Assembly: GCA_951799445.1 (NCBI GenBank)
Contig: OX637288.1
Location: 27,259,288 to 27,323,287, forward strand
Source: Pseudisothecium myosuroides
Lineage: Eukaryota > Streptophyta > Bryopsida > Hypnales > Lembophyllaceae
Length of the DNA stretch: 64,000 nt
Direction: 5' to 3'
The notes below the pieces were generated by a model, which saw nothing but the letters and a program-made list of their open reading frames with translations, was not told where the DNA came from and did no database searches. Of the stretch, positions 8,046 through 26,036 are shown piece after piece; the first letter of the stretch is position 1; every line of letters starts with the position of its first letter. Both the position numbers and the translations under genes were made by a program.

Positions 8046-8402
8046 GGAATGCCACTCTGCCTGAGTCAAGAAGTGCATCCTAGAGTGCTTGCTGTAGGAG
8101 GCCACGTGTGTGTGAAAACACCTTCTGGTTCCTAATAATCCAAATTAACCAAAGAGGCACCTCTCAGTAAAGACCAGATAATTCAGAAGTCATAAAATCA
8201 TCAAGGCAGAGTCGAGCCAAAAATGCAGAGCATATGGTCGAATCCAGGGTTGTCATATCGGACGGGTCGAGGTGATTGGACGAGACGGACGGACGGGCGA
8301 ACCGGACAGCCCGGACGCCCTTCATTATTGAAAATTTCCAATTGGCAAGTCACTTCACGCTAGTGGTCCACGTTGGAATCAGGTTGCGGACGTGAAAGTC
8401 AG

Positions 8403-8452
8403 GGCAGGGACGTTTCCGTCGGGGCGCGGACTTGAACATCAGGGCGCGGACG
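8403..8452 (+). repeat. Left subterminal GC-rich repeat cluster of the hAT element
   Basis: Words of the form CAGGGCGCGGACG occur at about 8403, 8421 and 8441 and point inward from the left terminus. The same words occur inverted near the right terminus. Subterminal repeats are the usual transposase-binding sites in hAT elements; binding here is inference. Confidence 0.6.
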
Positions 8453-8986
8453 GATTCATGTCTTAGGGTTCATATTTGTAAAACAACTATTGAAAAATTG
8501 ATTTCTGCGAAAGTTCAAATCAAGCATTAATGCTTTCAAAAGCCACATCCACTTGTTTTCTAGACGCGTGTACCCATTCATGATTACTTCCATGCATTTC
8601 GATAAAAAGATGCACTCTTCATTGTCTTCATTGACCATTGTTGTACTCGCACTTGAAAATTCTATGTACAACATCTTCTACTGTTCAATATAACTACACT
8701 CACGAATGTCATCTACATGCATGGCAAATGCGATAATTTTGCAAACACAATTGGAGACTTCATTTTTTTAGATAACCAACAACATTTATAAATTTCAAGC
8801 ATTGTTCAGTACAATAACAAGTTCACAACACAATGAATCTATACTTTCAAGATACGCCTCCTCTTCCATTGGTTATCTTAGACCCTCCTTCTTGTTCTTG
8901 TAGATCTTCATTACTTCATGTTTCAATTGGTGCAGCTGTCTTGAACTCATGATAAATGAAGATCTACAGATAGTGTTGGGTGCCCC

Positions 8987-9886
8987 TCAATTGTTGAAAC
9001 GATTTGATCTGAGGACTCGTATACCCGGATCCCCTAATGCAGCATTTTGAATGACCACATCATCATCTGCTGGTGCCTCATCACAATCAAGGTCGTCTTC
9101 ATCATCACCGCCTTCGCTAGTTCCACGTTCATCTTCTCCATCGTCACCGTCTGTAGTCCAGTGGCCCTCCACTTCCGAGTTCTCATTTTGAAGCTCCACA
9201 GCTATTTCACCATGCCTACAATTGCGTCTAAACCTCTTGTGTGGTTGAGCTCTAGGGTCCTTCGCGTCAGAATTTATATTGGGGCCTCCTTGTACTCGAG
9301 GAACGACATACGCTGGAGTGGACAAAGTTTCGCCTGGAACATACGTATTCAAGAATGGCTCTATCACCACGTTTGGGTCTCTGGCCCCAATTCCTAAGAG
9401 AGGGCGTTTATAAGGCCTAGACGATGACGCTTTGTTGTTGTTTTGCCCACCTCTAATACTCCGGCCTCCAATCCCTGCACGACCCCTTGCTCCTCCACGG
9501 ACGGTAGTCCTTCCACGTCTTTGTTGATATTCACCCATGGTGTGGTGAACTACGGGTCGAGGGGCGGTAGGGGATCTACCACCCGTTGTAACATTTGAAA
9601 TGCTTTGAGGCATCAATTCAACATTTCCCATTGAGTCTAGCCCTTCTTGGGCAGGTCGACGGTGAGCACTCGAAGTTGCAGGAGAAGAAGGGTTAAGGGA
9701 ACGCTGTACCGGTGTATTTTGGTTAGGAAGCACAGTATACACTGCAACCGGTGGGGGTATACGGGCTTCGTCTTCAAGCGGGTCAATAAACGCAAAAACA
9801 TCAGTGGGATCTAAATGTTCAGGGTCAAAACGCCTTGCTCCCGCTACATGATCCCCCATGACATTTCTTGCGATCGGTCGTGCCAT
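8987..9886 (-). CDS. Uncharacterised RGG-box and acidic-tail protein of the hAT element, 299 aa
   Basis: This intact frame starts at an ATG at 9886 and lies just downstream of the transposase. Residues 120-150 form an Arg/Gly-rich block (RGRTTVRGGARGRAGIGGR), typical of RNA- or DNA-binding low-complexity tails. Residues 225-275 are strongly acidic. No catalytic domain is recognised. The 130 bases upstream, read in a neighbouring frame, look coding as well (RILKDLFAIVMAVGGPEEW), beginning with an ATG that overlaps the transposase stop. The original protein may therefore have been longer and is now frameshifted near 9890. It could be a second element protein or a detached C-terminal part of the transposase. 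Confidence 0.5.
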   Translation of the reverse strand: MARPIARNVMGDHVAGARRFDPEHLDPTDVFAFIDPLEDEARIPPPVAVYTVLPNQNTPVQRSLNPSSPATSSAHRRPAQEGLDSMGNVELMPQSISNVTTGGRSPTAPRPVVHHTMGEYQQRRGRTTVRGGARGRAGIGGRSIRGGQNNNKASSSRPYKRPLLGIGARDPNVVIEPFLNTYVPGETLSTPAYVVPRVQGGPNINSDAKDPRAQPHKRFRRNCRHGEIAVELQNENSEVEGHWTTDGDDGEDERGTSEGGDDEDDLDCDEAPADDDVVIQNAALGDPGIRVLRSNRFNN

Positions 9887-10012
9887 TCTTGGATTCCCAA
9901 CGTTCTAGGTATGGCTGCCATGGCGTCCTTCGACAACTCTGTTGCTATCGCAGCCACCCACTCCTCCGGGCCCCCTACTGCCATCACGATCGCAAACAGA
10001 TCCTTCAGTATT

Positions 10013-12504
10013 CTAAGTTGCATTGTTCATCAGATTTCCACCGCCATTTCCATTTCCATTTCCCCCTTCGTTTTCCGGAGGGAGGTCATCGTCATTGTTG
10101 GAGGGAACATTATCATCATCGGCGTCCACCATGTCCGGATCATCACTCTTCGAAGACAATGACAAAGGCTGCACTTCCGGAACGATTGGATTTTGAAGGC
10201 CAGGGGGGGAGGATTTTGGCGAGGATCGGCTCCCCAAGGGCCCCAGCAACCAAGGAGGACTTCTTCTTCCACTTCATCATCATCTCCATAGTAATTTCTA
10301 GCTTCCTCGAGGTGATTGGCCCCTGCCCTCCACAAATTTGGATTTCGTCGGTACTCTTGAGGTGCTCGGTTTGCTTCCACATCAATTTCTTCTTCAACTA
10401 CCAGCACGTCAAATTCACGAAGGCGTTCAGCTACCGGAACAGGGCCAAGGGCATTTGGATCAGAATCCTCCGAGAAGATATTAGCATCATACCAACGAAC
10501 CGGATCGGCCCCCGGTCTTTGTTGAAGTACACGGCTATTGGTATAAATATATACCAATGACTCAGCCTTCTCGGGGGCTAACCGATTCCGAACCTTATTG
10601 TGGACAAATGAATACATACTCCAATTCCTTTCACATGAGCATGCTGAACACGTCAATGACAATATACGCACGGCAATCTTAGATAGTGCTCGATCTCCAA
10701 CCCTGTGCCACCATTGGTGGGGAAGCATCTGTGTTGCTCGGATGTCGGGTGTCTCAGCAGCACTATATGGCCCCGTGCCCTCCTCGAATTCTATTAATTC
10801 TGCCAGCACGTCGTTAAACTCTACACCCACTACATTTTCCATTTTGCGGATGATCCGATACAATGCACAGAGGGCAATTCCATCAGCCCTAAGCGCCACG
10901 TTGTCTAAGAGATATGGATTCAAAAGGGCCCCGACGTAGTGAACATCCGTAAAGACCATGTCCCACCTTGTTTTGAAAGACTCCTCCATGGTGGTGGCTA
11001 TGTCATCTCGTAGGGTGAAGGGTGGCTCTCTTAAAGAAAACACATGGGCTCTCAAATTGTGCATTACAAGCCACGCCCGACCCATAGCTGGTTCTCGGCC
11101 ATCAAATATGCGCAATGCCTTCAACACGTCTTCAGTCATGTGCACGTAATTCACACATTGTTGCCAGAAGCCCACATCTTCAATAGTTGACACCACATTA
11201 CGTGCAGCCGTAGCTGCTTGCTCCCCATTCTGTCTGTTTTGCAAACCATCAAAGTAATTTTGAACGCGCGCCTGGTCTTTTAACCGCAGCAGTACTCCTC
11301 GAAGTTTCACCAGTCGGTGCAACATGAGGAAATTACAAGCAAATCGGGTTTCGTTTGGCACTACGAGCTGCAGGTTCGGACTCAGCTCCCGGAAAACAGA
11401 CATGGTCGCGTGATGGTTCCAAATGTACTGGCACAATCTTCTTGCCCACTGAATTAAATCTTTGAATTCTGTTACTTTGGCCCAATCTTCCAACATGAGA
11501 TCCAAGGCATGTGCCATGCAACCCTGCTTGAAAATGTGGGGGTACGTGTGAACAATGTCGTCCAATGCCCCAAGCATGTTCGCTGCATTATCCGTACAAA
11601 CCTGCGTGACGTGTTTCGAACCCACTTTCTTAATGAATACTTTCATCTCGTCCGCTATGTAGCGCATGGACTTCTTTTGTCCGGTAGTGTCAATGGCCCC
11701 CAAAAATACATCACCGGTAGGGCACAACATCATCACATTCATTAGGGGCCTCCGATTCACGTCATCCCAGCCATCAGTGCATATTGTCACCCCGTAATGC
11801 TTCACTGCAAAACCAACTGTGGTTTTGATTTGCTTCTCGATTTGCAACCTCTTGGGTTCAATCAACTTAGTCATGAACTGATGATAAGAAGGTGGACTAT
11901 ATTCAAACCTTGCCACTGAGGTTGCCCTCACAGCCTCAATGAAGGCTGGATTTCTTGCCACATTAAATGGCACGTTTGCCTCGTAAAAAAATGATGCCCA
12001 CTTGTCATCCAACTCCTTCCTCTTTGCAACATTAAAAGCATCCTTCATGCGTTGCTGAAGTAATGTCCCAGATCTCGTGGAATTTGATCCAGCGAGACTT
12101 TGGGACCTCTCTACTGGGTCATTCCCTTCAGGGAGAGTAGCCCCTTCAGCCTGGTTCTCACCGGCGCCCCCTCCCGTCACTTCGTTCTGAGTGGATTGGC
12201 TTGAACTTGCAACTGGAATTGTTCTCGATGGACCACTCGGAACTGAGTCTCCTTCGTAAATGTCCTCGGGGCTCAATCATTGCGGGACAAAGTTTGCACA
12301 ATTTGCAAATCGGTGGCGCACAAGTCGCGGCGCACTATGACAAATTGACCTCTCGGACTTTGCACCATATCCAAAGTGAGCAAGAGCGCGCTCGCGTTTA
12401 TAGCTGAATGTCGCATTGCAGAAAACACAAGTCACTTTACTCCCATTCTCAGAGAAATTATACCACGGTTCCCACTCTTTTGTTTGCTTTCGTTGACTTC
12501 CCAT
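10013..12504 (-). pseudogene. hAT transposase (BED finger, DUF659, hATC), decayed
   Basis: The frame starts at ATG 12504. The first 75 codons form a BED-type zinc finger (WEPWYNF, then CVFCNATF, then a HF pair). An in-frame TGA at 12277-12279 interrupts it, and the same frame continues for almost 700 codons. It contains a DUF659 core with the acidic residues CTDGWDD and CTDNAANM, and a C-terminal hAT dimerisation domain (ALSKIAVRILSLTCSACSCE, then RNWS). After the hATC part a run of seven C on this strand (10203-10209) shifts the frame. The acidic, Asn/Gly-rich tail resumes in another frame and stops at 10013. The protein would catalyse excision and insertion by an RNase-H-like fold. The stop and frameshift make it non-functional unless they are assembly errors. 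Confidence 0.85.
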
Positions 12505-12764
12505 TGCATTCACGACGAATGCAAACGTGTTCTTGTAGGAAGTAGAAGAGGCTATCACACCAAATGAAACGGACAAAGTAATAGTTAGCGCCAATCCACT
12601 GCTTGAATTGATTTTTACATCACCTCAGCAGCAAACCAGGGCCATTTGCCACCCAAGTAGACTCACAAGGAGCTCAAACTGAATTGAAGTCCAAGATTTA
12701 AGGCCACGATGACAAATGTAGAGAAGTCACAACAATAGGATTGCCTTTATACCCTGGGAGTGCA

Positions 12765-12956
12765 GGGACGCGGACGTGTTGTGTGGGGGCGGGGATGTCA
12801 GAGAATGCAGACGAAACGTCAGGGCGCAGACTTCAGGTCAGGGCACGGACGTCAAGGCGGGGACTTCAGGTCAAGGCGAGGACTTCAGGTCAGGGCGGGG
12901 ACTTTAGGTCAGGGCCGGGACTTCAGGTCAGGGCGGGGACGTCCCAGTCCTCCGCC
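12765..12956 (+). repeat. GC-rich GGGCGGGGACTTCAGGT tandem cluster upstream of the transposase
   Basis: About nine imperfect copies of a 16-20 base unit (GGGCGGGGACTTCAGGTCA and variants) lie head to tail, about 260 bases upstream of the transposase start. The unit is related to the subterminal repeats at both ends of the element. It may be part of the transposase promoter. Confidence 0.65.
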
Positions 12957-15097
12957 ATAGTGTGGGGGGGAAGTGAAGTTCGTTTTGAACTTGGCCATGG
13001 GATTCTTCCTTCCCATAGAGAGGGGGAACCCATTAATGCAGGCAGCCCTTCATTTCAGTTTGGGAATATCTTCAAGTCAATGGCTCCATTAAGAGGTCCA
13101 ACCACTTTTTCAATTCAAAGACCGTGTATGGAAGCATGTGGCTCTGTAGTTAGGTTTTTGGAATCCCTATTCCAAACGCTACCAAGTTCGAACACCAGGG
13201 AATGATCTATATAAGGTTAGTGTAGCGTGTTCAAATGTCACTATGTACTTAAGTTTTGAAGATAGGATAAAAATTCATTCTTATTCCCACTAAATACCCC
13301 AAGAAACACTCAACAGTCCATTATAAGATAAAAGACTCAGCATGCACGTCTCAGTCCTATCTAGTGTTCTAGGGCTTGTGACAATAGTTCTGGGACAATA
13401 GTTCAATGTGGACTGACTTGTGTATGGATGCAATGCAGGACTTGACTTCAGTACAGCCCACTATAGTACTTTGAAAATAGTATAAATATACATATTTAAT
13501 ATTTCAAAATATTTAGAGTTTAAGAGTTTAGAAAGTCTTACAATGGGTTACCCCTCAGTAACTCTAGGGACAATATTGGCCAATACAGAGGTTAATCGAT
13601 TCCTACAATTCCAAAATTCAAATTTACTACATACATATGCAATTTTCAATACAAATTCTAATAATAATTAATACAAAATAATTAATAGAATTTTAAATCT
13701 AGTTCCCGATTAGGGGTACGGCCCAAAGGGCCGTTTGAAAAATTTTGACCTTTATTTTAATTTGTTTTTAATGAATGATTTTGAATTTTAATTAAAAGCC
13801 TTTTAAGTCCCATTTTCGTACACCAGTTGATACCCTGCAATTCCCAAACTCCCGGTCGGGTAACAACACCACCGAATTTCAAGTATCAACTGAGATTTCG
13901 TCACCTCGATTGAGACTACCCGAGATCCCAACCCTAACTCGGGACCTCGTCGGGCACCTCACTCGATCCTGGGACCTGAATCCCGATTCCCCGCTCCGGC
14001 GTCCTGCACTCTTTCTGGCCGAATTCCCGATTAATAATTCGATTTTTTCTTTATTTGTACGTAATGCCTTCAGATCTTGGCTCGTGATGTCTAAGCAATC
14101 TACCCCAGATCAAAAATCGACCGAATTGCTGAAATTTCCAAAAGTTGATGAGGAGATTCAGAGGTACTGCGACTACGCAAATTCGATCATAATTTGCCAA
14201 ATTGTGCACAATTTCTCCCTCTTCTGGTTTCTCCCGCAACCACACGACAATGAGGATCAGAGTTTTGGTTCTCGAATAAAATCCGGATTCTTCCAAGTTT
14301 CGCTTGTGTTGGCTTCAGAGATTCGTACAACAGGTTTCCGAGCAGCGCTTGTTTTCCTCCCCGCTTGGCTGTGATGCTGGATGCGTAATTCCGACCCGCA
14401 GCCTCTTCCCAGAAGTGCTCCGACGCACTCTCAGATCAACAATCCGTCTCAATCGAAATTATACACAAATTTCAAACAGCGTTCAAAAAAAATTGACCAC
14501 ACCGCACTCTCGACAATTCCAGCACAATTTTGAAAAAAAACAGCACTTTTTATTAATCAACAATGAAAACAGTACAATGTCAGCGCAAAATTGTTGCAAT
14601 GAAGGTTACACAGCACAGGGAGACGAAGAAGAAAACGCGAGAGAGAGAAATTGAGGAAAACAGCAGGGATTAATGCTGAATTCCGGGTGTGATTGGAGAG
14701 GTCGCAGCGCTCGCGATCAGCACGGCATTCACCACGCCTCTTGAATCCCTAATTTTCTCTTTTTCTTTTTCTTTCTGTTTTTCTTTATCTTTGGACTTTT
14801 ACTTTTACTTTGCCTTTGTCTTTTTCCCCTTTTAACTACTGTTTTGACTATCTACCAAAGTATCTTTTAACTTTTTGGAACTTCTAGTGTACTTTGGACT
14901 ATTTTAACACTAAATTCTCAAAATATATATAAATAATATAGGAAATGCTACAAAAAATTGAAAAAGTTCTATAAAAAGTTGAAAAATTATACTACAGGCT
15001 CCCTTCTTGGTGCCAAACTTCTCCTTCTTGCCTTCACCAAGCACTTGAGAATTAGGACCCACCCAAAATAAAGGAGATTTCTGAAAATGAAAATTTT
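12931..15097 (+). repeat. Direct repeat unit 1, split by the solo LTR
   Basis: Bases 12931-13144 and then 15002-15097 together match unit 2 (15961-16268) at roughly 95% identity, in the same orientation. The break in unit 1 is exactly the solo LTR plus its target duplication. Unit 2 therefore shows the uninterrupted sequence. Confidence 0.8.
13145..14996. mobile_element. Solo LTR, 1852 bp, nested in the hAT element
   Basis: The segment starts TGTAGT and ends ACTACA, the TG...CA form of LTRs with 6-base terminal inversion. It is flanked by a perfect 5-bp duplication GGCTC (13140-13144 and 14997-15001). The empty site is seen in the sister repeat at 16169-16173, where GGCTC occurs once. No internal gag-pol domain is present and no second LTR is seen, so this is best read as a solo LTR left by recombination. 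It has a TATA-like CTATATAAGG near 13207. A 154-codon ORF inside (13910-14374) has no recognised domain. Confidence 0.85.
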
Positions 15098-15645
15098 ATT
15101 TGTGTAATGGGATCCTACGAGGGTTTGGGATTGAAATGAAATACTAGTTCCGTTATTTTTTAATTCAAGTTCAACGGTACTCTTTTGTAATGGGGATATT
15201 TTAAGTGTAGTTTAGGATTGAAAAAATTAAATTAAATTCTATCCAAGTCATTTTGAATTCAATCATTCCACTAGAAAATTTTATTTGTGTAATGGGATCC
15301 TACGAGGGTTTAGGATTGAAATGAAATATTAGTTCCCTTATTTTTTAATTCAAGTTCAACAATACTTTTTTGTAATGGGGATATTTTAAGTATGGTTTGG
15401 GATTGAAAAAATTAAATGAAATACTATCCAAGTTATTTTGAATTCAATCATTCCACTAGAAAATTTTATTTGTGTAATGGGATCCTACGAAGGTTTGGGA
15501 TTGAAATGAAATACTAGTTCCCTTATTTTTTAATTCAAGTTCAACGGTACTTTTTTGTAATGGGGATATGTAAGTATGGTTTGGAATTGAAAATTGTAAA
15601 TGAAATACTAGTCAAGTTATTTTGAATTCAAGCATTCCAAAACAA
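15090..15645 (+). repeat. Three tandem copies of a 185-bp unit, itself a dimer of about 92 bp
   Basis: Units start at 15090, 15275 and 15460, each with AAAATTTTATTTGTGTAATG. The spacing is exactly 185 bases twice. Within each unit the phrase TTTGTAATGGGG...GGTTTGGGATTGAAA appears twice, so each unit is a diverged dimer. This is satellite-like higher-order structure. Confidence 0.85.
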
Positions 15646-15733
15646 TATTTCAAAAATATTAACTTCTAAATTGAGCAAATTCGTTAGGGTTTTTTTAACT
15701 TCAAATTAGGATCAACAACCAAGTTCGGTGCCT

Positions 15734-15751
15734 TGGGCATTTAGGGGTTAA
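15734..15751 (+). repeat. Isolated end of a TTAA-type MITE
   Basis: The words TTGGGCATTTAGGGGTTAA match the right end of the TTAA MITE at 25320-25339. No partner end is found to the left, so this is a relic or a truncated copy. Confidence 0.4.
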
Positions 15752-15849
15752 GATATTTGTGAGTTCAAGTTTGTGAATTTCCGTGTTCAACTTTGTCATG
15801 GAGGGAGTTCAAATTTGGCTTGGAGGGAGGTCAGGTCTGGGCGCTTGGA

Positions 15850-15975
15850 TAAATTTCCACACATACTTTAGGTCAGGGCGCGGACTTCAGGTCAAGGCGC
15901 GGACGTCAAGGCGGGGACGCCTAGACAGGGCGAGGACTTCAAATCAGGGCGCGGACGTCAGGGCGGGGACGTCCC
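15850..15975 (+). repeat. GC-rich GGGCGCGGACTTCAGG cluster, second internal copy
   Basis: Six or so imperfect copies of the same GC-rich word as at 12765-12956, again directly preceding the 300-bp direct repeat. Cluster and repeat were therefore duplicated together. Confidence 0.65.
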
Positions 15976-16268
15976 AGTCCTCCACCATAGTGTGGGGGGA
16001 AGTGAAGTTTGTTTTGAACTTGGCCATGGGATTCTTCCTTCTCATGGAGAGGGGGAACCCATTAATGCAGCCAGCCCTTCATTTCAGTTCGGGAATATCT
16101 TCAAGTCAATGGCTCCATTAAGAGTTCCAACCACTTTTTCAATTCAAAGACCATGTATGGAAGCATGTGGCTCCCTTCTTGGTGCCAAACTTCTCCTTCT
16201 TGTCTTCACCAAGTACTTGAGAATTAGGACCCACCCAAAAAAAAAGGAGATTTCAGAATATGAAAATT
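15961..16268 (+). repeat. Direct repeat unit 2, uninterrupted
   Basis: This unit matches 12931-13144 plus 15002-15097. It is the empty-site control for the solo LTR insertion. Neither strand has a convincing coding frame through it. Confidence 0.8.
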
Positions 16269-16439
16269 AACTTGCACACTTCAATCAAAAAAATTTTGAA
16301 ATTACATTATACAAGTTTTTGGGTTTATAACGAAAGACAAGGTACACATTTTTTTAAAATTCAAGTGGGAGGATGCATTTTCAAATTTTCCAAATATAAA
16401 CTAAAAGGGTTCACAATTAAAAAATAAATCGAACATGTC

Positions 16440-17640
16440 TTATATTTTTTAGACTTCTAATTGAGTGGGTTAGTTTTTGGTAATGGGGGCTACAAGGGTT
16501 TGGAAATTGGAATTCACATCATTAACGTATTACAATGTATTACAATGTAGTTCAAGGATTTTATTTTTAAAAATAGAGGCTACAAGGATTTGGAAAGGAA
16601 ACAAAATGCAAGTTCTAGTGGTTTCGAAGGAAGTTGAAGGCTTTAGTCTTGTTACTAGATGCTGCAAGGGTGAAGGGTTTTGATTTCAAATCAAATAGAA
16701 GTTATGTTTTGTTTAGTTATAGTTGAAGCCTTTATGGTGTTTGTAAATTGTTGTTCCAAGTGTTTAAAATTCAAATCAAGTACAAGTTAAATGTTATGTG
16801 CTTGTACTTCAAGGGCGTCAAGTTGAAGTACGGGTTTGAAGGGTTTGGAAATCCCTTCAAATACAAGTTAATATTTTTGGATTCTACTTCAAAGGTTCAT
16901 TTGTGTTAATGGAAGATACAAGGATTGGAAATTCCAACCAGATACAAGTGATTTTATCTTTGGTTAGGATTAATTGATTAAAGGATTTACTTCTATAAGT
17001 ACTACATAGAGGCTACAAGATTTTGGAATTCCTATTAAATACAGGATATAGTTCTTGGAGATTGAAGTTGCAGCATTGCAGGATTTACTTCTGTAATGAA
17101 AGGCTACAAGGCTTGAGTATTCAATTCAAATGTAGAATGGAAAATCTTCAGTTTTAGTTGAAGGGTCAATTTCTGTAATTAGCAATTACAAGTTAAATTT
17201 TTGTAATTGGAGGATAAAACTACTGCAAGGATTTAGGGATTGTCATAAATTTGAAGTTACTTGTTTTTTGGATTCCAGTTCAAAAAATCAATGCTTCATT
17301 TCAGTAACAAGAGTCTCATTATGTTTGGATTTAGGAATTGAAATCACATACCTCTTCTTTTATTTTTGGGTTTAGGTGGTTTTTAAAAACAAACAAAATT
17401 GGATACTAGAATTGTTTTGGCAAAAAATCAAAGACCATTTGTTTTATTTTTGGATTCACGTTTAATGGTTCCTTTGATAATTGTAATGTAGACATCTATT
17501 TATGTTTGGAATTGAAGTAAAATAAAATTGTTTTTTAGCTATTATATCTAGGATAGTAGGATGTGTGGAATTAATTATAAAAAATATTGACCATTTGATT
17601 TTTAGATTAGAACAATTTCGGATGATCAATTGTGTATTTG
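16440..17640 (+). repeat. Degenerate continuation of the ~92-bp repeat array
   Basis: The phrase TGTAATGGAGGCTACAAGG and its variants recur about every 80-130 bases (near 16480, 16575, 16910, 17000, 17095 and 17170). It is followed each time by a TTTGGAATTC-like segment. These are old, diverged relatives of the 185-bp units. No gene seen. Confidence 0.55.
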
Positions 17641-18320
17641 TGTAGGCAAAAAAATGAAAAATGCAGCTTCTGGAGAAGGAAAATTAGAAGAAGATGAATA
17701 GTGTTTTTCCCCCTTGGGAATAAATTGTTTTGGAATCTAAGGCAAATGCGGTATTATTTCATTTTTAAGAATGAGAAAAAAAAATTCTCTCCCATTTATA
17801 CAAATTTTGAAACAGAATTACAAAAGGAGTAGAAAGCCAAAATTAAGTAATTAACCAAATTGGATCCTACCAAAAAAATGTAAATTTATATATGCATTTA
17901 TATTTGCAATATAAATCTAATAATTGATAGCATAATGTTTGGAAGATTCGCAAAAATTTGGAATCAGTCCAATCATTTTTGTGTTCTTAATTGCACCAAA
18001 TTAAATTTTTGATTTATGAAGTTCCTCAAAAGTCAAAATCCAAATTTGAATTATTTTTGGTTGGAAGAACCACTTTGTTTGTGCGCAATAATGATTAGAG
18101 ATGTCGAAGAATATATGTTTGTGCTAAGTAATGAGTACGGATGTCAAAGAATATATATTTTCCATCCCTACTATTCCGTTCATTTAAAAAAAAAATGTTT
18201 GCTCCCATTTTTCTATTACACTACCTTTCATACATTTAAAAAAAAATACTTCTCACATTGAAATCTTCATAACCGGAAAGTATAATAAGTTTACAAACTT
18301 ATTACTCAATAAGTTCTTAG

Positions 18321-19310
18321 TTAACTCCTAAAGGCCCAAGGGCCCTTTTTCTGCCAAAAAACATTGGAAACTACCATTTCTAGATCAAGGAGTAAAAAAA
18401 TTTGAAAAATGTTTTCTCTTGGCACATCTAACCGTAGGATCTTACACCTAACTAGTATGAGAATGTGTGTCAAAAATTTCAAAATTTTTGACCACTCAGA
18501 TTGCAACATATCTACATTTAAAGTGGGAAAAAATTCAATGGAAAGTGACCGAATGTTTCAAGGAAAAAACAAGTGGAAAAAACAAGTATTTCAGCACATT
18601 GCAGGACTACACTTTTTGACTTTAAACGTTTTTAACTTAAATTTTTGGAACTTCAGAGTTCTCATCTTCAAATCTTTATAGTGGAGAATTGTGTTGAAAG
18701 TTTAGGAAAAAAAATAATATTAAAAAAGAATTAATTTTCATTCCTACCAAATTTATTAAGTAGAAGTACGTACGAGATTTTCCGAATATCTAAAAGACTA
18801 ATATATTTCAGATGGAATTAACATACATACATACCAATGGTAAGAGTGTTCTAGCAAGTAAGCTAAACCACGATATTTATTTATTTATTTTTAATTGCAA
18901 AAATAGCATTCACAAATGAATCGTACAAGTTATTTTTTCCAAGAAGATGCTCAAACTGCCCAAAAAACATGAATGTCCATAACTTTCTCATAACAAATCC
19001 AAATGAAATGAATCAAAGCTTTCCAGATAAAGTAAAATATAATCTAGGAGAAAAAAAATATTAAAAAAATAAATAAAATTTGCCAAATTTCTTTTGCTGC
19101 CCAAATTGTCAGTTACGAAAAAGTTAACATATTTGGCCATAACTTTTGACTCCTATTTCCAAATGTGCTGAAATTAAGTGCATATAAAAGATTTTCTTTG
19201 CACCCACTTTTTATTAAATTTTAGCTTAAAATATCGAAATCTCTAGTCAAACGTACGTACTCAAAATGTCTATACAACCCAAAACCACATGCTAGTCCTT
19301 TAGGGGTTAA
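18321..19310. mobile_element. TTAA-flanked MITE, copy 2
   Basis: The left end reads TTAACTCCTAAAGGCCC and the right end inverted reads TTAACCCCTAAAGGACT, so TTAA plus about 13 inverted bases match. The interior is AT-rich with no coding potential. It is nested inside the giant hAT element. Confidence 0.55.
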
Positions 19311-19757
19311 GGAATTATACATGCATCATGCAAAGGAATTCAACATTTGAATATATGTATTTCATATGCATAATGCATGAGGTAGTACAAAATTGGAAAA
19401 GTATACAACACGTTTTTCCATGATAAAATATGCATATCCACAAGTCTTCGTCTAATATTGTTTGTAGTAATTCTATAAGCATCGCCGCATCGGTAATGAT
19501 AAGTGCCTAAGTCTATACGCAAAATATGCTTTGCTAATTAGTAATTACCCCACTAGAAAATGCACTCAGTCGATATTCATTGGACTATTTGCAGTGCCAC
19601 TGGGTCCAGCCTCATCGTCATGTTTGCCATGCTGGATGTCCAAATTTTTGCCGGAGCCTAGTTGAAGTCTACGAACCGCAAACCGAGTTTTCCTCGATGG
19701 TTCGTCTTCTTCCAAAATGGCCCTCATAATTTGCGATTGCTTGAGGCTCTCCAGAGC

Positions 19758-21915
19758 TCAACGTGTATCCGGGCTATGTTGCTCAAGCAAGAAATCCATC
19801 CCTTCGTTTCTGAAAGTTTCCCTCCACTCAGATTCCGATAATTGAGCAAGCTCCGCGGGGTTGGGCAGGTCAGGGTCCTCCCCAATACGAACCCTGTTGT
19901 CGTCGATGACACGGACTCCATCAATGCCCCACAACCATTGCCTTGGGTGAGGTCCAAATTGAAACTTCTTTCCAACCTCGTCCCAATGTCCATTGAAGCA
20001 TTGGAAGAAAAAATTTCGTTGTCCTTGGCTATGCTTGTCTTTCATCGGAATCAAGTGGTGGCACACTTGGACAATTTGATTTGGGTCAGTCTCCCATCCA
20101 CATTCAGCAGCGATCTGTATCTTGTCCAACGATGTCATTTGCAATTTCCAGCTCCACACCAAGTTGGTTCCCCACTTTTTAGAGTAATTGGGGGCATTCG
20201 TGGCATTGAATTCCCAATGTGGTGGCATGTATGGGACCAAGCCAAACAAATCGTACAAGCGCTCGTGGAAAGGAGCCTTGCACAATATGCACCGACGACG
20301 GGAAATCATGGAACTGATGAGGCAAAATGGGTGGTACAAGTGGTTGCACGTGCCCAAGTGCATTCCACCTTCAGGGCCAAATGGATTCATACAAATGGGG
20401 CATATGGTCCCGTCATGCACAAAGCTTGAAGGATTTGGTCACTCCAATAACGACTTCCCTTTGTAGTCGACCGCCGACCCAACCTGAGTTTTTGTAATCC
20501 CAATTGTGTTGGAACCAATCAATGATTGTTTTTCCACCAGCAAGCTTGATGGTGGACATGTTGGGATCGAAAAGATCGTCCACAAGGGCTCAGGAAGTCA
20601 AGCCAAACACCCTTTCTTGATTGTGCTGACTGTAGCAGTGGTCCATTTTTTTGAACTCTGCTAGCATTTGTCGGGTTCTGTCAACGGTGAACACGCATGC
20701 CAACTTCCATTGGTAGTATTGTTCCACCAAGGCCTGCAAACAACTTTGTAATTTTTCGTTCTCAGCTCGCAAGTTGTTGATCTTAGAGCTGTTGTCCATA
20801 ACCATGCCCCCAACTTCAGTTTGCATTGGCATGTTGCTGAGTAATTCGCCAAAGGACAATGAATCATCTTCTGCAGACATGGCAGCAGCACCGTGCACAT
20901 TTTGCACCGGAATCTGAGAATCGTGAGGTCCTTGTGCTTGTCCTCGTGGATCTTGACCTTCGTTCATCATTTGTGCTGCTTGTAGAGCTCGTCGAAGCTC
21001 CTCTATGTCACGTGCTTGTTGAGCAATTATTTCGTCCTTGTGCGTGATTTCTTCTTTAAACTTGCACACATCTTCATACAGAGAATGTATTCCATCATCT
21101 CTCTCTTGTAATTGCACCCTCATGCTCTGTATGGTGTTTGCAGCAGCCATGACATCAACAACTCCAATAGTTGGTTCATCAGTTGCTTGGAACTGTGCCT
21201 CAGCAACTCCAACCACTGGATCCTCAGGGCCAGGGAACTGCACATGATTATCTTGCTCCTGAAGTTCTCCAAGAAGTGCACGCTCAGCCCTCCGTTTTTT
21301 TGCATGTTGTTGTCTTTTGTGGGTTAATACCACTAGTGTATGAGTCCCATCAAAGTCGTCGTCCGTAGAAGAGGCTGGTGTCTCATACGTGTCGGGTGCC
21401 TCAATACGTGTGTTAATCCTGCCTATGCCTCCTTCGGGATACCTCATAACCCCCCTTGGAATTTCTCCATTCGCTGCTGTCGGTATTTTTATACTAGATG
21501 GCGTGCTCTTTAAAGTGGACCAATCCACCCGCTTGTTCAATCTCACCTCCGCATGTACACCTCGTGCAATGAAAAGGTGGATTTCATTCCTTTTTATGGT
21601 GGACAAGTCGTACAACACCTGATATACTTCAATGCATCGTTGTTTGAAGGCCTCATCGATGCAGAATTTCAAGTTGGCTTTATGGAACCGGTGGTGGTAG
21701 TTGTGCCACTCTTCCGGGAAGGCCTTGTCAATGTGGCACCATTTGATGTAATTGGTGCAAGTCTCGAAACTCCACGGCTCAGGCTCTTCATTCCAGCCCC
21801 TAAATGCAAGTTTGTCGGGGTTTCGAAGTACGTGTAATCTCTTTCGTTGTTTGGTACTCGGCCTTTCTCTGTTCCGGTCTCTTTCTTCTTTGGTAGTTCT
21901 CGCTGGTGTTGCCAT
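19758..21915 (-). pseudogene. Coiled-coil plus RING-finger gene carried by the hAT element, decayed
   Basis: The ATG at 21915 is preferred over an upstream ATG (22026) because the likely TATA box lies between 22043 and 22050. The first 442 codons encode a basic start, a Trp-rich middle (residues 45-110) and a coiled coil near residues 285-350. They end in TGA at 20590. Reading on in the same frame gives about 55 more plausible residues. A one-base shift near 20425 then opens a 220-codon frame starting with a RING-type finger: CPICMNPF, CNHLYHPFC and CILCKAPF supply the eight Cys/His ligands. RING proteins are usually ubiquitin ligases. Function in the element is unknown. Whether stop and shift are mutations or an unrecognised intron cannot be decided here. 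Confidence 0.65.
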
Positions 21916-22380
21916 CGTGGAAAAATCAGGCAAAGATTCAATGTAAGAATAGAAACGACCCTGCACAACGCCAACGACCACCTCAGTGAAGAAGTGGTGG
22001 ATTTGGAATATGCAGGGCGGGGACAAATGAGGCGGGGACGGACTTTTATACTGTCGGAGTGCCCTTGTTGGGGCGGGGACACGTCCGATTCAGGGCAGGG
22101 ATGGGAAGGGCTGGGATGGGAACGGGAAGGGCGGGGACGGGAATGGGAAGGGCTGGGGCTGGGACGAGGAGGGCGGGGACGGGAACGGGCCAGGGCGGGG
22201 ACTATAAAAGCCGCCTTGGTCCCTCACTTTCCCTTGCCAAGTCCGTGCCCTATGCCTCACACCTTTGTTTGCGGAAGCGACCTTGGGACGTGAGTTTGGT
22301 GGGTGATCGGGCTTGGCCTACATATAGCACCCGATTTTTTTATTTTCTCTGAAGTTTTCGTGATTTCAAAATTTTGTAGA
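21916..22380. promoter_or_regulatory. Divergent promoter of the element's RING and kinase genes
   Basis: The two genes start back to back, 465 bases apart. TATAAAAG occurs on the minus strand at 22043-22050, 128 bases before the RING-gene ATG. It also occurs on the plus strand at 22203-22210, 171 bases before the kinase-gene ATG. Between the two boxes lies a GC-rich array of GGCGGGGACGGGAA-type words. The mirror arrangement strongly suggests one shared bidirectional promoter. Confidence 0.65.
22015..22206 (+). repeat. GC-rich GGCGGGGACGGGAA cluster, third internal copy
   Basis: About ten imperfect copies of a 10-18 base GC-rich word fill the space between the divergent TATA boxes. They resemble the subterminal repeats of the element. 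Confidence 0.65.
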
Positions 22381-23966
22381 ATGGCAGGAGAAGGGAGTAG
22401 GTCATCGGGTCACCGCCCCGTGTTTGTAGACTTTGATGCAGTTCCTGAGGTGGTACGTCCAGCCACGAACGTGTCAGCGGCTTCAGGGTCATCCAATCCC
22501 TCATCATCCAGCAGATCGAAGCGCAAAAGTCAACCCAATCCTGACATGCCCCCCCCACAAATTTGTGGTCGAGGCTAGAGCAATAGCGGTGGTTTTTTAC
22601 ACACGACGAACCTCTGGAATGATGTCCAGAGAATATGTGAACTACAGCAAAGAAGGATACCACAAGTTGACTGCTGAAGTGCAACGAGAGTTGGAGACCG
22701 CATTTAGAAAACCTGAACAATTCAACAATTATCAGGATTACTGGTTGTACTCTGAGTGGTTGGATAAACAAGTGTCGCAACTGACCACCAATATTGTGGA
22801 GAATTGGTGTTATCACATTATGAAGAAGGAGGATGGTAGTGATTGGGACACGCATGACAAGGAATTTGCTTTGAGATTGATCTAGATTCAGAAGTTCTCC
22901 CAACAATATTCTTCCTCACGTAGAAAGAAACAAGCACCATGGAAAGCGACGCTTGAAGACCAAATACGAGCTCATTGCGTGAGCGGAACATTCAAGTGGC
23001 TAGAAAGTTGTGTGAAAGTGAATCCCATGCCGAACCAGACCGCGATTGGATCATATGGGACCGTGAGGAAGGTGGTACTCACGAGACTACAAAGCATTCC
23101 CAGTTGGATTTGCTTCGTAGGGAAGACTTTGAGGACCTTAAATGAGAAGGAGAAGCGCGAAGGTATTGTGAATGAGGCGGGGGGGGGGGTGTCCAGTGAT
23201 ACATCCTGGTATCATAAGACTTGCGTACATCCATCCCAAAACAATGGAAGGCTACACGCTATGGTGGAATGGAGGGTCCTTAATTTCTTTCTTGGCCAAG
23301 TGCAACTCAAAATTGAGTGAAACATTGGTTTTGGATGACATCACGAGACAACATGATATAGGGTTGACGCAAGAAGAACTCGGTTGGGTTGCAACTTATT
23401 GCAGAAACCACGTGAACTTGGCTCTATCATTGCTTGTTACAGTGGAAAAATGCCATGAAGTACAGTATTTACACAATGACATTACTCCATCCAACGTTTT
23501 GCTCCATTTTGATGAATGGAAAGAGAACACAGTGTACATAGGGATTTGCGATTGGAGGCTTTCTGTCCGAGTTGTAGAGAAGGAGCTGTCAAGATATGGT
23601 TATACAACCATGGAGGAGCTCGAACGGGAGAAAAACAAACGCAAACATGCAGCCCCCAAATTGTTCTATGTGTACGGAGAGAAGGGGTCGGAAACCTTGC
23701 TTGAAGTCATGCAAAAAAAAAAGTTGTACTCTATGGCTGCTGATGCATATGCAACGGGATGGATAGCATATCAAATTTGGAAAGAAGAATGGGATTCTAA
23801 GTATTTTACAACCAAAAACAAGGAGCAATATTCGAATTTCTTGATTAAGCTATTGAGCCTCCAAGAAGTAGATGTAGGCAAGAGGGCGTCTGTACCTGGC
23901 GTTCTAGACACTTTGAGGAAGGAACCTCACTGTTGGACTATGCCTGAATGTTGTTATTGTACATAG
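22381..23966 (+). pseudogene. Protein-kinase-like gene carried by the hAT element, decayed
   Basis: From the ATG at 22381 a Ser-rich start runs for 55 codons to a run of eight C (22549-22556). The frame shifts there. The next frame is interrupted by TAG at 22883-22885 but continues in phase into a kinase N-lobe: GSYGTVRKV (glycine loop, about 23047), FVGKTLR (candidate ATP lysine) and VNEA (candidate helix-C Glu). A run of eleven G (23179-23189) shifts the frame again. The last frame gives the hinge region, then YLHNDITPSNVLL, an HND variant of the HRD catalytic loop, a CDWRLS segment in place of DFG, and an AADAYATGWIAYQIW helix. Without the lesions this is a complete kinase-like fold. Activity of an HND/DWR kinase is uncertain. 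Confidence 0.72.
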
Positions 23967-24550
23967 TATATTGTTTGTACTTTCTGAGGTTTAGTATGTG
24001 GCAATTTTATAGGAAGACCACACTTTTGTGCTTAGAAGAGCATGAAGCATGTGTATTTTGCGGTTGCTGCATATTTCATATATAAAGATTAAAGACACAA
24101 ACGTAACTATGGTAGAAATCTTGTAATATAGAATTTGGCAACTCTTCCATCATGGCAATTGTATGACTTTTTCGAATTTATGAATGTTGAGTAAGGCAGT
24201 AAGCATTAAGCAAACAAATTTGAATGCAAAAAAGCATGGGCATATGGTAGATGCTATGGGCACCTTAAAATTTTGAAAGAACCATAGACCGTAGCCCGTA
24301 CTCGGCGTAGGGTGTAGGAAGGAATGACTTTGAAATAAATAATACTCTTCAATATAAAAATGAAACCCCTCTCCCCTGTTTTGAGCTTATTTGGGCATAA
24401 CTTTTGTTCCCAGGCAACGATTGAAAAAAAATAATATTCCCATGAAGCTTATAAGTTTTTCGATCTACATAAAAAAAATCAGGACAAAAATAAAAATTCA
24501 ACCCGTAGGTACCTGCCCAAAATCCCATTTGTCCCCCAAGGCTCGAGGGG

Positions 24551-24570
24551 ACAATGGTCCTTTAGGGATT
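24551..24570 (+). repeat. Isolated TTAA-MITE end
   Basis: TGGTCCTTTAGGGATTAA matches the right ends of the TTAA MITEs at 8031-8045 and 19297-19310, but no partner end is seen nearby to the left. Confidence 0.35.
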
Positions 24571-24697
24571 AAAAAAATGTGGTTCACGTGAGCACAGGTC
24601 CTCCCTTATTGCTCATAAATTTGAAAGGAATTAGTAATTTTTTGCCTACAATGCAAAAAAGTATGGTTTAATTGAATGAGGGCCCCTTTATTGCTTC

Positions 24698-25339
24698 TTA
24701 TCCCCTAAATGCCCGAGGCACCAAATTTTGGTGTTGACAAAACTTTGAAGTTAAATAAAACCTAACCAAGTTGCTATTTTTAATAGATTAAATTTTTGTA
24801 AAATTCTATTTGAAGTCTACTTTTAGTGTCAAGAATCCGATTATCAAACGATTGATTATGATTTTTCTATTCAAGATTTTGTGCAAGGGTACCCATTTTA
24901 ATCTTGACTTTCCGTAGTGTTGGGGGCTCTTGGAAATGTGCCTCAAATACACTACATCTTGGAGGAAAATTCACATTAGAAATTCATTTAAAAAAATTGT
25001 AGAGTAGATTTTGAGAAGCCGTAAATTGATCATGGTTATGCATGTTAGGCCCTTAAACCTCATATTTTTTTGGTGACCAACTTCTTAGATTCAATATGTA
25101 AAAAAAGGATTGAAAGAATTTCTTAGTTTTAACACCGTCATGTTCAAACATTATAATCTTTAAATTCATAAGTGATATTCTTGTGTTTTCTTTTCCTACG
25201 TGATCTCTAACATGTTTAGTTTGAATTTGTACGGTTACAATTTTAAAAAATGATATAATTTATCAAAATGTTGGCCTTTTGTTCGATTTAAAGCAAATTC
25301 TTAGAAGTTCAAAACAAGCCTTGGGCATTTAGGGGTTAA
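24698..25339. mobile_element. TTAA-flanked MITE, copy 3
   Basis: The left end reads TTATCCCCTAAATGCCCGAGG and the inverted right end TTAACCCCTAAATGCCCAAGG: 19 of 21 positions agree. The interior is AT-rich and non-coding. The left TTAA has decayed to TTAT. Confidence 0.6.
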
Positions 25340-25564
25340 TGGAGAATGAACTAAATTCATTTGCCTTCAAGGGAAAAAAATACGAGTCCATGGAACAAGG
25401 TTCCTCTTTCTTTACTTTTAAATTCACAAGGAATTAGTTCTACTCGGCCCCACTGAAAAAAAATACGGTTCGGTTGTACAAGGACCCCCTTCATTCAAAA
25501 ATAAATAAATTCAATTTGGCTCCAATTTTAAGAAATCGTCTACTTCCGTCCACGATCCGACTAC

Positions 25565-25680
25565 TTTCGTCAACGAGCTGACTACCATCCGCGCCCCAAC
25601 GCACTCACGTCCCTGCCCTGACTTCCGTCCCCGCCCTGGCAAGATTACGTCCGCGCCCTTACTACAGTCCGCGCCCCCTA
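25565..25680 (-). repeat. Right subterminal GC-rich repeat cluster of the hAT element
   Basis: On the minus strand, words such as GGGCGCGGAC, GGGCGGGGACG and CAGGGCAGGGACG occur about five times. They point inward and mirror the left cluster. Confidence 0.6.
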
Positions 25681-26036
25681 CCGGAGACGTCCACACCCTA
25701 TATCCTACTTGGTAGCCACGTGGCATCAAAATGGCAGCCACATCACTTGTTTTTTCAATTAAAAAAAGTCAACTTTGTGTTGACCACATCGGACGGGTGA
25801 ACCGGACGTCCATCCGGTATGACAACCCTGGTCGAATTGCAAGTGAGGACCCATCACAAATTGCAGGCACCATTAGTATTTTGGTTTATAACCCCGGACA
25901 TTGGTTTTGGAGCAACGAGAGGTAGCTATCATCTTATACCACCTCTTGTCGCAGAATGCTTCTCACCCAACATCGTCAACCCAAACAAACAATTCCATCT
26001 AAATGGCCTTGAATCTTAGCTCCAACCTTTGAGCCT

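Follow-up and report, generated by a model that had tools for sequence, protein, structure and literature searches.

hAT elements are usually described as small transposons with one gene, and the segment from 8245 to 25830 of the window (the whole stretch of DNA that was analysed, 64,000 nucleotides long) raises the question as to whether a much larger element with several genes is present here as a genuine unit, or whether hAT ends have come to bracket genes of other origin. The original prediction was of one hAT unit of unusual size containing a transposase, an RGG/acidic ORF, a coiled-coil/RING gene, a kinase-like gene and nested elements, with the additional genes regarded as cargo. The features of the segment are collected in Table 1.

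Table 1. Features of the hAT unit and its flanks, with positions in the window.
Feature	Position	Strand	Remarks
Left target-site copy GTCGAATC	8237..8244	.	7/8 identical to right copy
Left terminal inverted repeat CAGGGTTGTCATA	8245..8257	+	Exact match; recurs at other loci
Left subterminal array, 3 GGGCNNGGAC motifs	8402..8451	+	
Acidic/RGG C-terminal tail of transposase (probable)	8987..9886	-	Frame differs from core
hAT transposase core ORF (DUF659, Dimer_Tnp_hAT)	10030..12276	-	Pfam
N-terminal transposase part, probable zinc-binding DNA-binding region	12277..12594	-	Matches related transposase N-termini
TATAAAGG box upstream of transposase	12744..12751	-	Equivalent in c09
Array at transposase promoter, 4 GGGCNNGGAC motifs	12841..12940	+	
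Solo LTR (TGTAG...CTACA), 5-bp duplication GGCTC	13145..14996	.	Later insertion, outside element proper
Three 185-bp tandem repeats, noncoding middle of element	15089..15643	+	
Duplicate of 12818-13144 and 14997-15095, with 4 motifs	15865..16268	+	
Coiled-coil/RING gene	19758..21915	-	Broken in window copy; RING within 19758-20420
Divergent RING/kinase promoter, 7 motifs	22015..22250	.	TATAAAAG boxes 22043-22050 (-), 22203-22210 (+); equivalent in c09
Protein kinase gene	22381..23966	+	Broken in window copy
Right subterminal array, 4 motifs	25609..25676	-	Inverted relative to left end
Right terminal inverted repeat	25818..25830	-	Exact inverted match to left end
Right target-site copy GTCGAATT	25831..25838	.	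7/8 versus GTCGAATC

The terminal sequence CAGGGTTGTCATA occurs without mismatch exactly twice in the window, in inverted orientation at the two boundaries, giving this copy exact 13-bp terminal inverted repeats; two more matches appear in the window when two mismatches are allowed, the expectation for matches with up to two mismatches being 1.37. The flanking octamers agree at seven of eight positions, and a match at least this good has a chance of about 0.0004 by hand calculation. Short terminal inverted repeats are a hAT feature, as is the 8-bp target-site duplication found in the family, and the transposase has Pfam matches to DUF659 (PF04937, 2e-33) and Dimer_Tnp_hAT (PF05699, 2.8e-9), the hAT dimerisation region being present. 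In the window copy a stop codon separates this core from the N-terminal part, in which Pfam reports no zf-BED domain even though the segment matches the N-terminus of related transposases. The RGG/acidic ORF is present as predicted, but it is probably not a separate gene; because it aligns with the C-terminus of the one-piece transposases P0047 and P0048 (1093-1131 aa), it probably represents the tail of the transposase. Since the tail lies in a different frame from the core both in the window copy (c01) and in a second full copy (c09), an intron or frame change between the two seems likely from the sequence.

The host genome searched, which from the genes neighbouring the unit appears to be that of a plant, comprises 388 Mb in 222 contigs, with the window on contig C2. 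With the left 200 bp of the unit as query there are at least 43 matches in at least 40 places (70 candidates, of which 40 were scored), and 20 left-end loci carry the terminus on the strand displayed or on the other, some with single changes. For ten other left ends (c02-c11) we read the first 20 kb of the interior, and for c09 a further 10 kb. It is c09, on contig C5, that bears most directly on the prediction, as it has the same genes in the same order and orientation as the window: transposase (95% identity), tail (91%), RING gene (90%) and kinase (94%), with the extension adding the remainder of the kinase (91%), the right end and an 8/8 target duplication, GCAATATG. The ends thus recur elsewhere, and in c09 they do so with the genes between them, so that the condition originally set for refuting the prediction does not hold. 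The c09 kinase is interrupted by an unrelated 9.29-kb insert, without which the copy is about 17.0 kb long. A third full copy on C9 is recognized by coordinates (left end, transposase 89%, RING 90%, kinase 91%), and near 12.42 Mb on C5 a left end is found with a transposase and no kinase within 30 kb.

Of the nested elements that had been predicted, one nested insertion is present in the window copy. The segment 13145-14996 is absent from all ten of the other copies compared, each of which joins across the gap with a 5-bp overlap, so that it can be read as a solo LTR inserted in the window copy alone. It contributes 1.85 kb, and subtracting it leaves a unit of about 15.7 kb, which is smaller than predicted and still far above the usual hAT size.

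Eight of the ten other copies (c02-c06, c08, c10 and c11) contain none of the genes, and c07 has only an N-terminal piece of the transposase. Across 12 copies the target duplication is perfect in seven (c02, c04, c05, c06, c09, c10 and c11), 7/8 in the window copy and 3/8 in c08, which keeps both ends despite this; for c03, c07 and c18 no right end with a duplication was found. The six gene-less copies with 8/8 duplications (c02, c04, c05, c06, c10 and c11) retain both element ends (1.2-1.5 kb on the right) along with the noncoding middle, and share one common 0.7-kb stretch that is only 73-75% alike; from their sequences they look like internal-deletion derivatives. We note that one of these, c05 (C11:255275-275274), is 18.9 kb long; about 11 kb of this is inserted sequence, in which there are inverted pieces belonging to the element's own family. 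Copy c18 consists of a left end and transposase tail, with no further element sequence above 250 bp in about 21.5 kb, and just outside another left end, at about 15902183-15902581 on C11, lies a piece of the RING protein with 30% identity that is perhaps the remnant of a diverged relative.

The ends and the genes are also connected by a short motif. There are 22 copies of GGGCNNGGAC in the window, compared with 0.72 expected by shuffling, and all 22 are inside the unit, clustered in arrays that point inward at both element ends. TATA boxes read from the sequence adjoin the arrays of all three genes in the window copy; c09 has arrays at the matching places, with three of its four TATA matches adjoining them. 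Six other copies contain 99 motifs in 55.2 kb of element sequence versus one in 64.5 kb of flanking DNA, with 64 of 64 on the plus strand in the first half, 30 of 30 on the minus strand in the last 700 bp, and five elsewhere.

These observations bear on the possibility that the unit is an accident of nested insertions, in which unrelated hAT ends bracket genes foreign to the element. Nested insertions have certainly occurred (the solo LTR in the window copy and the 9.29-kb insert in c09), and the genes are absent from eight of ten other copies of these ends. However, in c09 the entire order recurs, enclosed by paired ends and an 8/8 duplication, and for the close family we reject the accident on this ground; moreover, the noncoding middle and right end are common to the gene-less copies, and the motif arrays tie the ends to the gene promoters. 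An accidental origin is thus extremely improbable, and we are nearly certain that 8245-25830 is one genuine unit together with its gene content.

The presence of a coiled-coil/RING gene and a kinase gene inside the unit agrees with Pfam, with scores below the curated cut-off for the RING (2e-5) and below cut-off for the kinase domain (1.1e-5). Both genes have internal stops and frame breaks in the window copy, but in c09 a single frame with one stop spans coiled coil and RING, which are therefore parts of one gene. Because c01 and c09 each have stops of their own, neither is evidently active. The kinase yields a confident structure model (mean pLDDT 81.6), helical in its N-terminal part, that matches RAF and other protein kinases. 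The model of the RING protein is poor outside the RING (mean pLDDT 61), so that no DNA-binding fold can be named for it; the RING itself is matched weakly by structure, and Foldseek returns no match for the model at E <= 0.001. One scan of viral contigs revealed no relatives of the kinase. A kinase with 67% identity (P0002) is found on a 2-kb contig labelled Bacilli; stray plant sequence in a metagenome bin is the likelier source.

Comparison of c01 with c09 over 438 kinase and 658 RING codons, excluding the stretches around frame breaks, gives a pN/pS of 0.33 with p 4e-6 in the RING gene and of 0.35 with p 2e-4 in the kinase; the value is 0.26 for the transposase including its N-terminal part, and 0.64, not significant, for the tail. 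Judged by these ratios, purifying selection has constrained both the RING gene and the kinase in these two full copies. An alternative explanation is that they are captured passengers, host genes carried without benefit to the element, and gene capture by plant DNA transposons is indeed known (also from the available text of PMC6431247); in addition, the genes are broken in the window copy and many copies are without them. The constraint between c01 and c09 argues against this, as do the promoter arrays common to the element genes, and because the kinase and RING genes are both constrained and share the element's motif arrays they look like genes of the element itself. The genes predicted as cargo are thus within the unit, but the constraint and the arrays speak against passenger status.

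The passenger explanation can also be weighed against the distribution of the three genes in the genome, for which all counts are lower bounds because scoring was limited to the best candidates. The kinase query gave at least 82 scored matches (297 candidates), merged to 77 loci; the transposase query at least 65 (396 candidates), merged to 63 loci; and the RING query at least 93 pieces (718 candidates), merged to 58 loci. A kinase lies within 30 kb of 42 of the 63 transposase loci, against a mean of 1.9 and a maximum of 7 in 1000 random placements, in which the lengths of C1, C8, C9 and C10 were guessed; in the other direction, 40 of the 77 kinase loci have a transposase within 30 kb, leaving 21 transposase loci and 37 kinase loci with no partner at this distance. 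RING loci behave similarly, the random placements again using guessed lengths for those four contigs, with a kinase within 30 kb at 36 of 58 (random mean 2.7, maximum 9) and a transposase at 22 of 58 (random mean 1.9, maximum 6); 43 have either partner, 15 have both and 15 neither. Searching with the kinase and RING genes, as originally suggested, therefore places both near related transposases far above chance, the RING gene in several lineages.

Among linked loci the kinase lineages match the transposase lineages. There are 40 mutual nearest kinase-transposase pairs within 25 kb, whose identities have a Spearman correlation of 0.70: pairs with a transposase above 80% (n=3) have kinases of 91-98%, those at 60-80% (n=6) have kinases of 54-61%, and those at 43-47% (n=31) have kinases of 26-30%. 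The mutual-nearest rule removes one 63% transposase 19.4 kb from a 26% kinase that is also claimed by a nearer 44% transposase. Such matching in 40 pairs likewise argues against passengers. We regard the passenger explanation as improbable and consider it very likely that the kinase and RING belong to the element as its own genes.

The arrangement of the genes varies with lineage. In the near lineages 13 RING genes point away from their kinase; where a transposase is present too, at eight of these loci, the RING gene lies in between and on the same strand as the transposase. The far lineage has 22 loci with RING and kinase facing each other, at a gap of 8.6-14.2 kb in 20 and a wider one in two; six of these facing loci have a transposase on the far side of the kinase, and there the three genes together occupy 23-32 kb in an order that differs from that in the window copy. 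One more facing RING/kinase pair, near 3.41 Mb on C3, is of mixed lineages and probably reflects chance. In a compact family the kinase and transposase are convergent, 16 of the 18 pairs so arranged being separated by 3473-3475 bp, and stop-free frames are found in 10 of 15 transposase matches (1076 aa) and 11 of 17 kinase matches (559 aa). A transposase lies no more than 3.6 kb from 17 kinases (16 of them compact, one divergent), and one of these kinases has a RING gene within 30 kb, the one near 3.41 Mb on C3; in one compact copy, 2.4 kb between the two genes contains no RING match. With no RING genes of its own close by, the compact family indicates that the RING is not essential. The right terminus of the compact copy in which the 2.4 kb was read is, read inward, CAGGGTTGTCTA and adjoins an array of another GC-rich motif, with a similar GC-rich array upstream of the kinase. 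From gene linkage we take the diverged loci to be candidate elements, paired ends and duplications being known for the close family alone.

How might such an element work? We propose that the transposase would cut and paste the unit and would mobilise the shorter gene-less derivatives, the transposition step following established hAT biology. The GGGCNNGGAC arrays at the ends and promoters are putative binding sites of an element-encoded protein, either the transposase or the RING protein, and binding there could couple transposition with transcription. The kinase and RING protein may modify this array-binding protein or host silencing factors, keeping the element expressed. Such a module would work like VANC of the VANDAL elements, with no kinship to VANC; Pfam reports no VANC-like domain in the kinase or RING proteins. 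In the available text of PMC5735166, VANC binds a short motif arrayed in the noncoding regions of VANDAL elements and causes methylation loss. By this analogy an anti-silencing role for the kinase and RING protein is conceivable, if rather unlikely.

The arrays may instead be plain transposase-binding subterminal repeats that double as promoter parts, with the kinase and RING protein acting on the transposase alone and having no anti-silencing role. Subterminal repeats are usual in hAT elements, Ac/Ds among them (PMC3260210, in the portion available), and the arrays here do point inward at both ends; recognition of the ends would nonetheless not call for the further arrays found at promoters within the element and in its duplicated noncoding stretch. 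This simpler reading is still tenable and its probability falls somewhat short of even. Taken with the mechanism that we propose, the window copy is probably a full-length though degenerate representative of an autonomous hAT transposon with several genes. More tentatively, and with rather less than even confidence, the loci may represent a plant hAT clade equipped for signalling by a protein kinase, joined in some members by a RING ubiquitin ligase. These genes would have been long co-inherited with the transposase and driven by lineage-specific arrays, and would give the transposon an independent means of overriding host control through phosphorylation and ubiquitination.

Comparison with known systems places the unit closest to several of them in part. 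Like maize Ac/Ds, itself a hAT system, it has CAGGG inverted termini, 8-bp target duplications, and DUF659 and hAT dimerisation domains, as well as subterminal repeats and internal-deletion derivatives corresponding to Ds of Ac (the latter two features from the accessible part of PMC3260210). It differs in size (4.6 kb for Ac, about 15.7-17 kb here without later insertions), in having genes for a kinase and a coiled-coil/RING protein in addition to the transposase, and in having arrays at internal promoters too. The Mutator-like VANDAL elements are similarly multi-gene, and their noncoding regions contain arrays of short motifs that all point the same way (PMC5735166, available text); the distribution of GGGCNNGGAC inside versus outside the unit parallels this as a likeness of working, not of membership; the transposase is of the hAT and not the Mutator type, and kinase and RING replace VANC. 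The copy number of the 185-bp repeats and the motif-bearing duplicate (window 15089-16268) differs between element copies, as it does for the target repeats of VANC.

Pack-MULEs also have extra genes between terminal repeats, but the genes here are in fixed order with the transposase, are constrained and are not fragments; Pack-type elements are non-autonomous and carry unconstrained fragments that differ between copies, whereas two copies here have a transposase together with constrained genes. The fungal Starships and the Polintons are likewise large units with several genes besides a recombinase. Starships use a tyrosine recombinase, in contrast to the hAT transposase here. Polintons use a retroviral-like integrase (PMC6431247, portion available), again unlike the hAT transposase of this unit. 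PMC6431247 and PMC13317346 contain no occurrence of either hAT or kinase, and we found no precedent for a hAT element with a kinase or RING gene in the open-licence PMC literature, absence from which is not absence from print. The unit is a hAT transposon that is novel in its size, gene content and regulatory layout.

A hAT lineage in which kinase and RING genes are conserved would demonstrate that a cut-and-paste element is able to accommodate and retain a regulatory module of several genes. In the compact family open reading frames are numerous and the spacing is constant, which makes it a practical system in which to ask how a kinase of its own benefits a transposon and whether, as with VANC, silencing is overridden by arrays and proteins specific to a lineage.

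Two further observations concern the surroundings of these elements. The insert in the c09 kinase (C5, about 9371976-9381264) has inverted ends CTCGGGGGGTGCACTCC and an 8-bp duplication ATGGAAGG, with two ORFs of 624 and 285 aa that have no Pfam match, and is perhaps an undescribed DNA transposon. In addition, C11 makes up 16.9 of the 388 Mb and has 25 of the 82 kinase and 17 of the 65 transposase matches, far above its share, and is possibly a repeat-rich or sex chromosome.
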